Below the pieces are notes generated by a model. It had not been told where the DNA came from, did no database searches, and was given only the letters and a program-made list of their open reading frames with translations. Below are positions 7,676 through 47,638 of a DNA stretch of 64,000 nt, piece by piece. Location: assembly GCA_017883235.1 (NCBI GenBank), contig JADGNY010000009.1, positions 25,534 through 89,533 on the forward strand, given 5' to 3'. The position numbers were made by a program, and so were the translations under genes. This DNA is from Thermoanaerobaculia bacterium. Its GTDB lineage: Bacteria > Acidobacteriota > Thermoanaerobaculia > Gp7-AA8. Numbering within the stretch: position 1 is the stretch's first letter; every line of letters begins with the position of its first letter.

Positions 7676-8836
7676 TCACACGGCAGTGCGCGCGTTCATA
7701 CAAACGCGATAGAAACCGGCCGTCTCGCGGCCGACGCGCTCCCACGTATATTCGCGCGCCGTGCGGGTTGCGGCCGCACTCATCGTGTACGCGCTTTCGA
7801 GATCGCGGATGATTGCGGTTGCGGCATCGGCGAGCGCGCCGGCATCGCCTGGCGGTACCAGAATGCCGTTACGCCCGTCGATGATGTCGTGCATCCCGCC
7901 GGTGTCACTGGCGATGACGCAGAGGCCGCGGCTCATGGCCTCGATAAAGGCTTTGCCGAAGCCTTCAAAGAACGACGGAAAGAGAAATGTTCCGTGCTGG
8001 TCGTAGATGTCGCGCAGTGCGTCCTGAGTGGTCCAGTGCCGCACCTCGGTCCGCTCGTTTGCTTCCCCGGTGAGGAGTGTGCGGATGGTGGTTTCGCTTG
8101 ATCGATCGCATACCCATGTAAATCGCAGGCCCCCTTCCGCCGCGGTGAGGCGATTGATCGCCGCCGCGGTGATCATGGGCGCCTTGAAGAATGCGGCCTG
8201 GGCGACGTGAAGCACGCGGCGGAGCCGTTGCGCGTCCATCGCCGGCACGTCGTTCCGCAGGTAGGAATCCGGCGCCGCCTGGGCGATGACGGCGATCCGC
8301 TCTCGCGGTACGCCGAGACGTTCGTGGAGAAACCGGGCGTCGAGCGAAGAGGACACGATGTGGCCGTCCGCTTCCCGCGCGATGGCGCGCGCGTGCCGCG
8401 CCAGGAGGGGCGCCAGCGCGAGCGAGGCGATACGGCGGCTTGCGCTTCGCTCATCGCTGCCGTATACCTCACGCCATGGCTGCAGCGTCTCTTCGGCGTT
8501 CAGCTCGAAGCCGTGCGAGCGATGGATGAACGCGGTGCGTGGCGAGAGTCGATGCACCGCCTTCGCCGCTCGGAATCCGTGAGGCTGATTGGCGTGGACG
8601 ACGTCGTATACGTTGCGTCGTAGCGCTTTGACGGCCTCTCGCTCATAGGCGCGGGGCAGTTCCAGAAGGAGATGCAGGTTGCCGTGCCCGATGCGGCGGC
8701 CGAGGTCCTCGGACCAGACGGAGTCGACCTCGTGTCCGAGGGCTCGGAGGGCGTTGAGAGTCTGTACTTCGGTGCCGGCCGCGCCTCGGTTCGGATCGGC
8801 GGGTGTATCGGACATCATCAGTACTTTGAGCGTCAC
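7676..8836 (-). CDS. Glycosyltransferase family 4
   Basis: VTLKVLMMSDTPADPNRGAAGTEVQTLNALRALGHEVD; FLFPSFFEGFGKAFIEAMSRGLCVIASDTGGM; start inferred as GTG at 8836. Confidence 0.85.
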   Translation of the reverse strand: MTLKVLMMSDTPADPNRGAAGTEVQTLNALRALGHEVDSVWSEDLGRRIGHGNLHLLLELPRAYEREAVKALRRNVYDVVHANQPHGFRAAKAVHRLSPRTAFIHRSHGFELNAEETLQPWREVYGSDERSASRRIASLALAPLLARHARAIAREADGHIVSSSLDARFLHERLGVPRERIAVIAQAAPDSYLRNDVPAMDAQRLRRVLHVAQAAFFKAPMITAAAINRLTAAEGGLRFTWVCDRSSETTIRTLLTGEANERTEVRHWTTQDALRDIYDQHGTFLFPSFFEGFGKAFIEAMSRGLCVIASDTGGMHDIIDGRNGILVPPGDAGALADAATAIIRDLESAYTMSAAATRTAREYTWERVGRETAGFYRVCMNARTAV

Positions 8837-41625: not shown

Positions 41626-41639
41626 GCCCCAAAAGGCAA

Positions 41640-42735
<1,096 letters not shown>

Positions 42736-42738
42736 AAG

Positions 42739-42823
42739 CGGGGGTCGGGAGCCGGGGGTCGGGTGTCGGAGAGTGCTTGCGCGTTGCTGTCTCCGACCCT
42801 CGACCCCCGACCCCCGACCCCCG
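42739..42823. repeat. GGGGGTCGGG-type inverted repeat
   Basis: CGGGGGTCGGGAGCCGGGGGTCGGGTGTCGGAG ... CTCCGACCCTCGACCCCCGACCCCCGACCCCCG. Confidence 0.8.
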
Positions 42824-42830
42824 CGTAACG

Positions 42831-43223
42831 CTACCTGTCTTCATTCAGCAGCAGCGCCAGTTCCTGCGTCCGCATGTCGGCGCCGGCGGCGACGCGGTAC
42901 TCCCCGTCATGTTCTTCGATTAGTTTGAGGCGATCTAGATCCCCCCGGCTGATGCCGCAGGCCTTGGCGAAGGCCAGCCACTCGGGAGGGGTGCTCGCCT
43001 CGATGTCGTCCTCGCCGAGGATCGGCTCGCCGGCGCAGTTGAAATGCTCGCAGCCGAACTGTTCCGCGCACTGCGGACAGGGCGGCGGATCGTTGAAATC
43101 GGCCAGCTCGCTCTCGGTCAGCACCCGCATCGTCCCGCCGCGTTTCTCGCGGACGTAGCTCAAACCGCTCTCGCTGCTCGAGAGGAGGTCGAAGCGCTGC
43201 GCTTTGGTGCCGTCGTCGGACAT
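42831..43223 (-). CDS. Hypothetical protein
   Basis: MSDDGTKAQRFDLLSSSESGLSYV...CPQCAEQFGCEHFNCAGEPILGEDD; ORF extends in frame upstream through the tandem repeat. Confidence 0.5.
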   Translation of the reverse strand: MSDDGTKAQRFDLLSSSESGLSYVREKRGGTMRVLTESELADFNDPPPCPQCAEQFGCEHFNCAGEPILGEDDIEASTPPEWLAFAKACGISRGDLDRLKLIEEHDGEYRVAAGADMRTQELALLLNEDR

Positions 43224-43295
43224 GGATACGAGGATCGTATCGCACCCGGAGTCCTTTGCTGGAGACTCTGATTCCCTTGGGCAGAAGCCCGAGCC

Positions 43296-43415
43296 CTTGT
43301 GCGAGCCCCGTTCCCCTCTCGTTAGGGACTTCGTTCCCCTCGGTAGGGACCTCGGGTCCCTCGGTAGGGACCTCGGGTCCCTCGGTAGGGACTTCGAGTC
43401 CCCCGTTAGGGCAAT
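43296..43415. repeat. Tandem about 21-bp hairpin repeat array 1 (4-5 units)
   Basis: TCGGTAGGGACCTCGGGTCCC x2, TCGGTAGGGACTTCGAGTCCC; each unit is a stem-loop with TCG loop. Confidence 0.85.
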
Positions 43416-43487
43416 AACATACATACTGACACAGCGTTCTTTGCGGGTCATCGCGGGTCATGGCGGGTCGGGGAGTAGAATTGCTCC

Positions 43488-43721
43488 ATGACCGATAGCC
43501 CGATCATGACGTTTCGGTGCCCTGCATGCTGCGCGACCGCTGATGTCTACGTGCCCAAAGGCGGCACGCTCGATGATGCGCAAATGACGAGTCGTTCGGC
43601 TGGTCTTGTCCTCGGTGCGGATTTCAAGAATCCACGCGAGACAACCGTCCACCACGGATGTACGCATGACGAGACGGGGAAAGCCACGCTGATGAAGAAG
43701 GTTAGCGAGCGCGACACCTAG
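43488..43721 (+). CDS. Small hypothetical protein
   Basis: 77 aa MTDSPIMTFRCPACCATADVYVPKGG. Confidence 0.4.
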   Translation: MTDSPIMTFRCPACCATADVYVPKGGTLDDAQMTSRSAGLVLGADFKNPRETTVHHGCTHDETGKATLMKKVSERDT

Positions 43722-43946
43722 GAACAGGCTGGGAAGATCCCAACCGGCGCGGACCCAAGCGAAAGGTGTGAGTTAGTAGTGCGGGCTGTCGTTCGAAGAT
43801 TCAGTTAAAGCTCTTCTAGGTACACCGCCCCGAGTAAATGCGGAGCAAAGAAGTAACCAATCTCGCCCAGAATAGCGGATCGAGTGCGGTCACGCTATCA
43901 TTCCGCCTCTCTCATCTAAAACTAGGTGACCCCGGAGGGAGGCGCA

Positions 43947-44918
43947 ATGCTCGTCGAAAAACTTGTCGACAGGATCATCGAGTCGCATGCTAAAAATCGG
44001 CTCGAAAACTTCCTGAAGGCTGCGAAAGAGAAGAGCGCGGCACCAGTTCGCGCGTTCGCTACTGCCGGATCACGCGATCAACTCGTGAAGGCACTCGGCT
44101 CCGCTATTCAGGGTCGGTTTGTCACGCTCCAGGAAGTGGTATCGCTGATGGACCGTATCGAAGAGAACGGAGCCCATCACATCTTCATGTTCGATTTGAC
44201 CGAGGCGGGCCGCGCCGCTCTGACTGAAAAGGCGCTCCAGAATGTGTTCAAGCTACTCCCAGATCCACCACCAGAAGACATGTACAGCGAGGTACCGGCG
44301 CGTCCGTATACGTTTCTGCGCATACGCGATCCAATCATCGCGCTGAAGCAGGTTCGCCTGACCACGTACATGATGCTCGATCCGAAAAAGACGGTCACTC
44401 TACCGTCTGGAGAACAGACCATCACGCGAGTCCCCGTCGAGCGACGCGCCGTTAACATGCTCGTCATCAACGTAAAGACTGGCGCAGTCGAGATCCGCAT
44501 CGATCGCAGCGACAGCACAACAGACGCGACGGCAATCGAAGATTTTGACCGCTTCGTCACTGATATGAAAGACTCGCTGAAATGGCGGGAGCACCTAGCG
44601 CCGTTCCCGGTCAGGTCGTCGTTTCCGAAGATGGTGGATTCTCGGGACATCTTCATGAAAGCTGCCCAAATCGTTGGGTCGGATATCGCTGGCACGGTCT
44701 CATCAGTTCGGCAGTGGACAGACGTTCGCGACACACCGAGGTATAATTTCAGCCCGGTGAACGATCGGTGGGATATCGTCAGAGCGTCAGAGCCTACTTC
44801 AGTCCGCCAAAAGAAGAGAGCGATCCAGAACTTTATGCTGTCGTCAACCCTGTTGACATTCATGGTATTGAGTGCGCAAAGGTCTACATCAGCGCGCGCG
44901 TCGAGCCTGAGGAACTGA
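43947..44918 (+). CDS. Hypothetical protein, first gene of three-gene cassette (possible frameshift near 44770, reading on to 44956)
   Basis: GGAGGGAGG RBS before ATG at 43947; MLVEKLVDRIIESHAKNRLENFLKAAKEK; alternate-frame continuation SVRAYFSPPKEESDPELYAVVNPVDIHGIECAKVYISARVEPEELNGVIARIRNFAA looks more protein-like than the in-frame tail. Confidence 0.65.
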   Translation: MLVEKLVDRIIESHAKNRLENFLKAAKEKSAAPVRAFATAGSRDQLVKALGSAIQGRFVTLQEVVSLMDRIEENGAHHIFMFDLTEAGRAALTEKALQNVFKLLPDPPPEDMYSEVPARPYTFLRIRDPIIALKQVRLTTYMMLDPKKTVTLPSGEQTITRVPVERRAVNMLVINVKTGAVEIRIDRSDSTTDATAIEDFDRFVTDMKDSLKWREHLAPFPVRSSFPKMVDSRDIFMKAAQIVGSDIAGTVSSVRQWTDVRDTPRYNFSPVNDRWDIVRASEPTSVRQKKRAIQNFMLSSTLLTFMVLSAQRSTSARASSLRN

Positions 44919-44921
44919 ACG

Positions 44922-45350
44922 GTGTCATTGCCCGGATTCGAAACTTTGCTGCATAGGCACCCCGACGATACGGGTGCGATATCGCGGCTTCAGCACGCGA
45001 TCTGCGAGACGCTTGCCATGTCATCGACCGCGAGGCTGGACGAGGTCATTTTGTCGCAGCAGACGCAGGTAGATCGCGCGCATGTGAGAGACTTGTTACT
45101 CGAACTTGCCTCGATACGCGCGCTTAAAGTCACGCTCTTTTGGATCTGTCCAGTTTTGCAGGGAACCGCGCTTGAGAGGTCACAGATCGTTGATTTCCCG
45201 GCGGTAATCGATTGCGACGTTTGCGGGCAAGTTCACAGGTTCGAAGAGGGGCGAGTTGAAGCCTACTTTCTACCTGACGAAGCTGACCCGCCCCGTATCA
45301 AAAGTATTGAGATTCGGCCGGTTTATTCCCTGGACCGGCCGCAGCGGTGA
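44922..45350 (+). CDS. Hypothetical protein, possible winged-helix plus Cys-containing domain; second gene of cassette
   Basis: STARLDEVILSQQTQVDRAHVRDLLLELASIRALKVTLFWICPVLQG...VIDCDVCGQVHRFEEG; tight spacing to neighbours. Confidence 0.6.
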   Translation: MSLPGFETLLHRHPDDTGAISRLQHAICETLAMSSTARLDEVILSQQTQVDRAHVRDLLLELASIRALKVTLFWICPVLQGTALERSQIVDFPAVIDCDVCGQVHRFEEGRVEAYFLPDEADPPRIKSIEIRPVYSLDRPQR

Positions 45351-45359
45351 TTCTGAACC

Positions 45360-46076
45360 GTGCCGTCCGGGACTGGCATCGCTGACTTCAACGCTTCCGC
45401 TGAGCGGGTAGCTCCTGAACTAGCGCAGTACCGGCACGCCGTCGTGACGGTCCCGGGCATGGCAACAACCGGAGCATGGCAAAAAGCGATAAACACAGCG
45501 CTTTCTGACGCCGTCGTGCGACACGAGCCAGTAGACTACACGTTCGCGACTCTCGGGGTAGTCTGGCCGATGACAGCGCGGACTATCGCGGAAGTGATCG
45601 ACAAGATTGTCGCTGCCGTGGAGAGCCATCGCGGCCATTGCCCTGGTCCTCCTTCGGTCATCGCACACAGCTTCGGCAGCCTTTCGTTCGGCAGAGCACT
45701 CCAAAAGCGCCCAGCCCTCTCGGTGGGACGATCCATCGTTTTCGGGAGCATCCTTCCGACTAACTACCCTTGGAGTTCTGTCGTGAAGAATGGCCAGGTC
45801 GCTGGATTGCTTAACGAAATCGGCGGAGCAGATCCGTGGCCAGTTATGCCGTTCCGTTGGTTGATTGCTGGATCGGGTTCAGCCGGACGGAATGGGTTCA
45901 AGGACCTAGCGACTGGTGCCGTCATTCAGCGAAACAACCCATGGACGGACCATAGCGACTTAGGTACGAGGATGCTTGTGCGCGAGCAATGGTTACCCTA
46001 CATGATGCATGGCACCCCTCCTCCTGGATGCAAAATCATCGGGCCAACGCCGCACCCTACGATCCCGCCCCCATGA
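45360..46076 (+). CDS. Alpha/beta-hydrolase (serine hydrolase) third gene of cassette
   Basis: AVVTVPGMATTGAWQKAI; nucleophile SVIAHSFGSLSFGRAL; NEIGGADPWPVMPF; NPWTDHSDLGTRMLV. Confidence 0.7.
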   Translation: MPSGTGIADFNASAERVAPELAQYRHAVVTVPGMATTGAWQKAINTALSDAVVRHEPVDYTFATLGVVWPMTARTIAEVIDKIVAAVESHRGHCPGPPSVIAHSFGSLSFGRALQKRPALSVGRSIVFGSILPTNYPWSSVVKNGQVAGLLNEIGGADPWPVMPFRWLIAGSGSAGRNGFKDLATGAVIQRNNPWTDHSDLGTRMLVREQWLPYMMHGTPPPGCKIIGPTPHPTIPPP

Positions 46077-46279
46077 CCGTAACCGCCGCCCTCCTCGCCA
46101 GCCTGGACACGATCACCGCCGAGACGACAACGATGGCTCTCCGCGCTCGAGGATGCCGAAATGAAAACACCAGACCGCCGCGAAAGCGGCGCGGCGCATG
46201 TTGGATACGCGGACGCGCGCAGGAGCTACCGCTACTTCTTCCTTCGCCCGCGTCCCTGCCGCTGCCGCCGCTTTCACCT

Positions 46280-46925
46280 TCAGAACGGCTCCCAGCGCGG
46301 CTCTTGCTGCGGGGGTAGCTCTGACTCCGACGCCCGATCGATCGTCTTCCCGGTCAGTTCTTTATACGTCAGGCGCTTGCCGGTAACCTGCCCCATCGCG
46401 GTTACGAACCGGTCGCCGTCGTTCATGTCGCGGCCGTTGTTGTATCTGAAAGCCTCTTCGTCGATGTAGCGGAACAGATGGAACCGGCTCGACCGCGATG
46501 TAGGTGCCGTCCAGCGCACGCGTGAGCAGGCTCCAGAAGTTCTCCATGGTGTTGGTGTGGACGTTGCCGTTTACGTACTCAACGGCGTGATTGATGACCG
46601 CGTGCTGGTAGTCGGCATCGAGGCCGGTGTAGGAGTGAAGTTCATCGCTGAAGATTGCCGCGCCAGCTTCGACATGCTCGCGGATCTTGCTCTGAAGTTC
46701 CTTCCGTCCGCGACTCTCGACATGCGCCGCGCGAACCTTCCTGCCGCGCTCCACCATGCCGAAAACGATCTCTTTGTCGGTGCCGCCGGTACCGTGAATC
46801 TTCGCGCGACGCTTCGCCGCATGCATGTTGCGAGACTTGCCGCCGATGAACGTCTCGTCTACTTCGATGGTGCCGCCGAGCTTCTCACCGTTCTCCTGCA
46901 ACGCGAGACGAAGACTCTGCAACAT
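46280..46925 (-). mobile_element. IS1595/ISXO2-type transposase remnant (N-terminally truncated, frameshifted)
   Basis: GGTIEVDETFIGGKSRNMHAAKR...IFSDELHSYTGLDADYQHAVINHAVEYVNGNVHTNTMENFWSLLTRALDGTYIAVEP | FHLFRYIDEEAFRYNNGRDMNDGDRFVTAMGQVTGKRLTYKELTGK; extra nt near 46484. Confidence 0.85.
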
Positions 46926-46969
46926 GAACCACCCCGTTTTTTGCGTGAACCCCTAGCGCCGGGGTCTAC

Positions 46970-47490
46970 TCGATCCCCTCGTTAGGGACTTTGATTCCCT
47001 CGGTAGAGACCCCTGTCCCTCTCGGTAGAGACCCCTGTCCCTCTCGGTAGAGACCCCTGTCCCTCTCGGTAGAGACCCCTGTCCCTCTCGGTAGAGACCC
47101 CGGTCCTCTCGGTAGAGACCCCCGTCCCTGTCGGTAGAGACCCCTGCTCCTCTACGTAGAGACCCTCGCCCCTCTCGGTAGAGACCCTCGCCCCTCTCGG
47201 TAGAGACCCTCGCCCCTCTACGTAGAGACCCCTGCCCCTCTCGGTAGAGACCCTCGCCCCTCTACGTAGAGACCCCTGCCCTCTCGGTAGAGACCCTCGC
47301 CCCTCTACGTAGAGACCCCCGTCCCTCTCGTTAGAGACTTCGAGTCTCTCGTTAGAGACCCCTGCCCCTCTCGTTAGAGACTTCGAGTCTCTCGTTAGAG
47401 ACCCCTGCCCTTCTCGTTAGAGACTTCGAGTCTCTCGATAGAGCCCCCGCCCTTCTCGATAGAGACTTCGAGTCTCTCGTTAGGGCTTTG
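46970..47490. repeat. Tandem 21-22-bp hairpin repeat array 2 (about 24 units)
   Basis: CTCTCGGTAGAGACCCCTGTCC / CTCTACGTAGAGACCCCTGCC / CTCGTTAGAGACTTCGAGTCT variants, contiguous, no unique spacers. Confidence 0.95.
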
Positions 47491-47638
47491 ACTCCCTTGC
47501 CAGAGACCTGGATTTGTTTGCGAGAGACTCAGATCTTGCCGGTGCGCCGTCCTTTGCGGAGGACAGTCCACGCGCGCCGCAGCGCGCAATCAACCGACAA
47601 CGCGGCGAAGCCGCAGACAACGCGCGCAGCGCCCAGCC

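Follow-up and report, generated by a model that had tools for sequence, protein, structure and literature searches.

Three genes lie side by side on the forward strand of the window, i.e. the whole 64,000-nucleotide stretch of soil-bacterial DNA that was analysed, and together with a transposase remnant and minisatellites they make up an inserted island (Table 1). The sequence-only reading had described them as tightly packed and co-directional, the first coding for an unfamiliar protein of about 324-343 aa, the second for a 142-aa protein with a CDVCGQ motif and the third for a hydrolase with the motifs AHSFGS, GGADPWP and DHSD. The three ORFs are present, all of these motifs are found as stated, and gene 1 belongs to no known family, but its ORF is frameshifted and its C terminus lies in another frame.

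Table 1. Features of the cassette and of the island that carries it (positions in the window).
Feature	Position	Strand	Remark
Inserted island, ~4.4 kb: cassette, transposase remnant and minisatellites	43197..47638	.	empty site in G001
Gene 1 (putative sensor), main ORF	43947..44918	+	family homology only to ~44744-44770
Gene 1 C-terminal segment, different frame, overlaps gene 2 start	44768..44956	+	tblastn to L026 orthologue
Gene 2 (putative adaptor), winged-helix-like plus small Cys/His domain (CDVCGQVH)	44922..45350	+	142 aa
Gene 3 (putative effector), lipase-like serine alpha/beta hydrolase without C-terminal anchor	45360..46076	+	238 aa
Nucleophile Ser104 (AHSFGS)	45669..45671	+	invariant in 41/41 aligned homologues
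Predicted catalytic Asp158 (GGADPWP)	45831..45833	+	invariant in 41/41
Predicted catalytic His198 (DHSD)	45951..45953	+	invariant in 41/41
ISXO2/IS1595 transposase DDE domain, remnant	46362..46925	-	PF12762, E=6.6e-34
22-nt minisatellite, GTTAGGGACTT...GAGTCCCTC type	46955..47485	.	repeat families D1, D2

The frame of gene 1 is broken near 44745-44790. In tblastn the intact orthologue is tracked in one frame as far as about 44744, from where the match goes on in a second frame up to 44953, and the frameshift was seen in two analyses. About 60 C-terminal residues (...VYISARVEPEELNGVIARIRNFAA) are found in the other frame; this segment is 37.5% identical over 80 aa to the C terminus of the L026 orthologue (E=2.6e-11, tblastn) and corresponds to positions 315-342 of the gene 1 HMM. 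The 330-aa ORF that ends at 44918 and the gap of about 4 nt before gene 2 are thus results of the frameshift, and the natural C terminus (end at 44956) reaches 35 nt into gene 2. An overlap of 47 nt is seen in the intact L026 orthologue, where gene 1 ends at 8649 and gene 2 starts at 8603. We note that the frameshift may be genuine or may be an assembly error, in other words the window copy may be decaying or mis-assembled.

A contig from another genus of the same family (L003, genome G003; the same record as L026) has the three genes in the same order, and the window proteins are 37%, 43% and 41% identical to their counterparts for genes 1, 2 and 3, respectively, the gene 1 orthologue being an intact protein of 363 aa. 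This ordered conservation of all three genes rules out chance ORFs. The three genes also follow each other in this order on another Acidobacteriota contig (L025), the third one, where gene 1 is truncated by the contig end.

The borders of the island were defined by an empty site: in the same-genus genome G001 the window flanks (to 43196 and from 47639) are found 66 bp apart (contig C165, L097). The GC content is 0.56-0.61 within the island and 0.64-0.69 outside, and a two-gene form of the cassette is present at another place in G001 (L004/L042). The transposase remnant suspected next to the genes was identified by its PF12762 domain (Table 1). The cassette is flanked by minisatellites of 21-22 nt (GTTAGGGACTTCGAGTCCCTC type), as an array at 43275-43411, on the opposite side of the genes, is related to the one at 46955-47485; such a pair is a possible recombination route for the island. 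Short dispersed, REP-like repeats were also observed in the window at 41630-41707 and 42732-42827; they match both strands and recur by the dozen in the two same-genus genomes, an 11-kb query giving about 80 matches in each. The window copy itself is located among ordinary chromosomal genes, outside any defence island, and the same is true for several other copies.

Gene 2 (family alignment A10) and gene 3 are fused in most loci, and the fused protein combines a winged helix, a Cys-rich zinc-ribbon-like region, an alpha/beta hydrolase and usually a C-terminal hydrophobic anchor. In the structural model of a fused homologue, the N-terminal region that is equivalent to gene 2 is predicted to have the order H-E-H-H-E plus strands. 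The fusion to an effector is the basis for considering gene 2 a putative adaptor. Comparison of the fused proteins with PHD, IBR and NNH7 models gave weak matches that we judged to be due to chance or to generic helix/zinc similarity.

The predicted catalytic residues of gene 3 are invariant in the family and follow each other in the triad order Ser-Asp-His, with the Ser in a nucleophile elbow. The fold was assigned on the fused homologue L042, with the window gene 3 entering as a row of the alignment. The AlphaFold2 (AF2) model of L042 (pLDDT 86.9) matches minimal lipases of the B. subtilis type and of A. fulgidus (Foldseek probability 1.00, target TM about 0.6). According to this model, gene 3 is a lipase-like member of the alpha/beta hydrolase superfamily; a lipid substrate is putative, as a lipase fold is no proof of it. 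A hydropathy scan finds a C-terminal hydrophobic segment in most gene 3 homologues, and it is absent from the window copy. The two Acidobacteriota relatives are also without the anchor, so the loss is shared by the clade. Since the anchor is absent and gene 1 is frameshifted, the activity of the window copy itself is doubtful. It is also conspicuous that an HG motif near the oxyanion region reads PG in the window gene 3 (Pro32-Gly33, 45453-45458). Among the rows of alignment A7 the near-invariant His of this motif is replaced by Pro only in the window copy, possibly a further sign of decay.

The gene 1 family alignment (A6) has 24 members. The window-type group and a larger gene 1 alignment constitute one family, as shown by an hhalign probability of 100%; two members are common to both alignments. 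The AF2 model of the L026 orthologue (pLDDT 80.6) predicts an N-terminal part of four helices together with two modules that each combine a sheet with helix. A fold search with this model gave no trustworthy structural match: the best TM value was about 0.3, to RdgC, and helix-grip proteins and TBP were among the further weak matches. As the fold gave no confident match, the label 'sensor' rests on gene order and elimination. Weak sequence matches of gene 1 to ENY2, and of its frameshifted tail to a bromodomain model, were judged to reflect chance or generic helix/zinc similarity, and a gene 1 match at L024, beside a patatin-like gene, was considered a chance one. In an acidobacteriotal genome (G358, L104 7867-8885) a gene 1 homologue extends over two ORFs and adjoins a gene resembling a type I restriction subunit; it has the appearance of a relative in decay.

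Pfam, NCBIfam, PADLOC and PHROGs contain no family that covers gene 1 or gene 2, direct look-ups with gene 3 in these libraries were not informative either, and no earlier description was met in the open-licence literature searched. The family look-ups gave no metabolic family match for these two genes, and no known metabolic operon that would account for them was found. No PADLOC-DB 2.0.0 model matched the three window genes or the tested gene 1, gene 2, gene 3 and fused homologues at E<=1, except for two weak matches with E values of 0.005-0.007. The effector is of an already known type, an alpha/beta hydrolase, and the gene 1 and gene 2 families are without a match in the libraries searched. 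A search of the genome contigs with the window gene 1 alone found nothing because this gene is too divergent. Viral scans with alignments A2 and A3 and with the L103 gene 1 gave no match, and the viral copies were recovered with a subfamily profile (A9). E. coli genomes and INPHARED phages gave no match to the queries used.

The distribution of the family was investigated with a gene 3 profile in 85,462 species genomes, which gave 50 loci. In 30 of them, from about six phyla, a gene 1 homologue stands immediately upstream of the hydrolase, i.e. gene 3 does not occur mostly apart from its partners; a 31st locus (L047) has only a C-terminal remnant of gene 1. The hosts include Pseudomonas, Kluyvera, Marinicella, Erythrobacter, Aurantiacibacter, Bradyrhizobium and Massilia, as well as a member of the Flavobacteriales, KSB1, Acidimicrobiia and Aegiribacteria/Sabulitectum MAGs, and plasmid copies are found in Rhizobium and Aminobacter. 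The family is rare and patchy, with 1/369, 2/375, 6/380, 4/395 and 3/347 genomes in the sampled groups. The loci without gene 1 mostly have other hydrolase architectures, with a protein kinase (Nocardia), a PLD domain (L027), DUF6932 (Klebsiella and Pantoea plasmids) or long extensions, and the hydrolases of Novosphingobium, Singulisphaera, Nocardia and Nostoc were excluded for this reason. Within these architectures, the hydrolase domain of a Nocardia protein (L028 7165-9696) is C-terminal to a protein kinase domain; L029, L030 and L032 code for proteins of the same kind (790-870 aa), the kinase domain being established for L028. In a gammaproteobacterial MAG (L027 8965-10989) the hydrolase domain is fused to SH3 and PLD-like domains, a possible two-enzyme effector.

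The cassettes fall into three groups. Group I comprises the split three-gene cassettes of Acidobacteriota without an anchor (the window and L026), group II the split three-gene cassettes of proteobacteria and prophages, in most of which the hydrolase is anchored, and group III the fused two-gene cassettes. The gene 1 and gene 3 trees disagree solely on the attachment of group I. The correlation between the gene 1 and gene 3 distance matrices is r=0.974 over 41 loci, a value reached in none of 999 permutations. Part of it is due to shared descent, and it still shows that genes 1 and 3 travel together. The components thus co-occur and co-diverge, as those of a sensor-adaptor-effector system do.

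At three loci (L103, L131 and L132) the hydrolase is missing: what comes after gene 1 and a gene 2 homologue is a protein of 166-179 aa for which two or three membrane segments are predicted. Gene 2 of L132 retains the Cys/His motif (CDACDEDH versus CDVCGQVH in the window). The first two genes are kept and the last one is changed, which fits the prediction of a sensor-adaptor-effector design; the sample of loci in which the effector is exchanged and the putative sensor kept is a small one.

In ten viral contigs gene 2 and the hydrolase come after gene 1, although at L122 gene 2 lies in an unlisted gap between the other two. Examples of intact prophage cassettes are L120 1705-4028 and L117 1707-3952. 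At L120 the cassette abuts P2-like portal and terminase genes (phrog_68, phrog_3746), and by reading the same arrangement is present at L119, L126 and L129. Rousset et al. (2022, PMC9122126) showed for P2-like phages of E. coli that the cos-proximal site between gpQ and gpA serves as a reservoir for anti-phage systems, and the L120 cassette occupies the gpQ side of this hotspot. Defence genes were also found around other copies. HamA and HamB (Hachiman) stand beside the cassette twice according to PADLOC (L033 and L034 by position); at L055 type I restriction-modification (RM) restriction and specificity subunits lie directly upstream and a HEC-05 match downstream; and L013 has a BilD match beside JAB/ThiF genes. 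The 247 neighbour proteins matched 80 and 335 PADLOC models (two batches). For 122 control proteins of these genomes the number was 54, and kinase-like and mads models made up most of the matches. The comparison is coarse, as models, many of them redundant, were counted rather than systems. The excess is suggestive and falls short of a proper enrichment test. Mobile DNA, a prophage hotspot and defence loci are among the settings in which copies of the family are found. At another locus (L136 6538-11976, G1739) an effector-swapped cassette has vWA, PP2C-like and kinase-like genes immediately behind it. This combination of genes is known from conflict systems.

Taken together, we believe that the cassette moves horizontally and is a defence-type unit of sensor, adaptor and effector, the effector being a membrane-acting lipase, and we give this reading, antiviral benefit included, a probability of about two in three. 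An undescribed immune or conflict-type cassette with a lipase-fold effector had been suggested from the window, and the prophage and defence contexts, the patchy horizontal distribution and the replacement of the hydrolase support it. The suggestion holds well for the family and less so for the window copy with its interrupted gene 1. In such a system gene 1 (about 340 aa) would most likely detect an intruder or a sign of infection, and gene 2 would hold the effector off and relay the signal. Once released, gene 3 would cleave an ester or thioester linkage, with membrane lipids as the most plausible target, and would harm or arrest the infected cell, i.e. it would cause abortive infection. In its broadest form the proposal would be that gene 1 founds a family of immune sensors which act inside the cell, have a fold not recognised so far and have not been described before, and that it controls, through the winged-helix adaptor gene 2, interchangeable membrane-acting effectors (a lipase or a small membrane protein) in six or more phyla as well as in P2-like prophages; we regard this version as tentative, with slightly less than an even chance of being correct.

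Some of the same observations could be read in terms of a toxin-antitoxin, superinfection-exclusion or addiction module, in which the anchored hydrolase is a toxin restrained by gene 2 (and gene 1) and stabilises the mobile element rather than senses phage. The tight overlap of the genes, the plasmid and prophage copies, the fusion of gene 2 to the effector and the small membrane protein that stands in for the hydrolase at some loci would all be in line with this. Yet simple modules of this kind do not usually include a large conserved extra protein (about 340 aa) whose divergence goes along with that of the effector, and a fused gene 2-3 protein is unable to act as a degradable free antitoxin, so we consider this explanation unlikely. 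The boundary with defence is blurred, as many defence systems behave as toxin-antitoxins. Less probable still is a mobile metabolic or envelope operon, i.e. a membrane esterase or lipase whose accessory proteins help it to remodel lipids or degrade an ester substrate: ordinary lipases are indeed nearest to the gene 3 fold, and the window copy and some others stand among housekeeping genes, but no metabolic operon family matches genes 1 and 2, and the patchy distribution, the prophage location and the effector replacement do not fit.

A different question is whether the window copy is a decaying, inactive remnant, which is compatible with the defence reading since the family may be a defence system all the same. 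The gene 1 frameshift found in two analyses, the gene 3 product without an anchor and with PG for HG, and the transposase fragment alongside point in this direction. On the other side, neither gene 2 nor gene 3 is interrupted and the triad is complete, the anchor loss is common to the clade, and an error of one base in a draft assembly would give the same picture. We consider the odds of decay to be close to even, though somewhat below.

If the defence reading is true, the cassette represents a defence system without a name that occurs across phyla, its sensor and adaptor families being absent from the searched libraries, and a membrane-anchored alpha/beta hydrolase would be an effector of phage defence. 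The compact three-gene prophage versions from Pseudomonas are open to direct testing, and the natural exchange between the hydrolase and the membrane protein is a built-in test of genes 1 and 2 as the sensing part.

The cassette can be compared with several known systems. The lipase and phospholipase effectors of CBASS, such as the patatin-like CapV, act on lipids and are released on infection. The likeness to CapV concerns only the proposed mode of action; CapV has a patatin fold and belongs to that family, whereas the cassette has an alpha/beta hydrolase and no cyclase. A homologous hydrolase domain (E=3e-6, tblastn) is present in the DUF6932-alpha/beta hydrolase fusions of enterobacterial plasmids, which match the PADLOC candidate PDC-M63A and carry an N-terminal DUF6932 (PF22014) where the cassette has gene 1 and gene 2. 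Such fusions were seen on a Klebsiella plasmid (L015 7479-8657) and a Pantoea plasmid (L016 1-1200), the one of Klebsiella adjoining genes for an ATP-binding protein and a UvrD-like helicase that are GajA/GajB-like.

The P2 hotspot also contains a three-gene system that protects against P1 and whose genes have no clear predicted domain (PMC9122126). Like the cassette at L120, it consists of three small, otherwise unassigned genes beside gpQ; unlike it as described, the cassette ends in a recognisable alpha/beta hydrolase, and the two may still be related or even the same. Finally, alpha/beta hydrolases are effector components of the MoxR-vWA (VMAP) and GAP1-N1 conflict systems (PMC7159879). 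The cassette itself is without the MoxR, vWA, caspase or GTPase core of these systems, genes 1 and 2 having no Pfam match, but the general design is similar: in both cases an exchangeable alpha/beta hydrolase effector stands beside regulatory proteins, and in the MoxR-vWA and GAP1-N1 systems SLATT membrane proteins are among the alternatives (PMC7159879).
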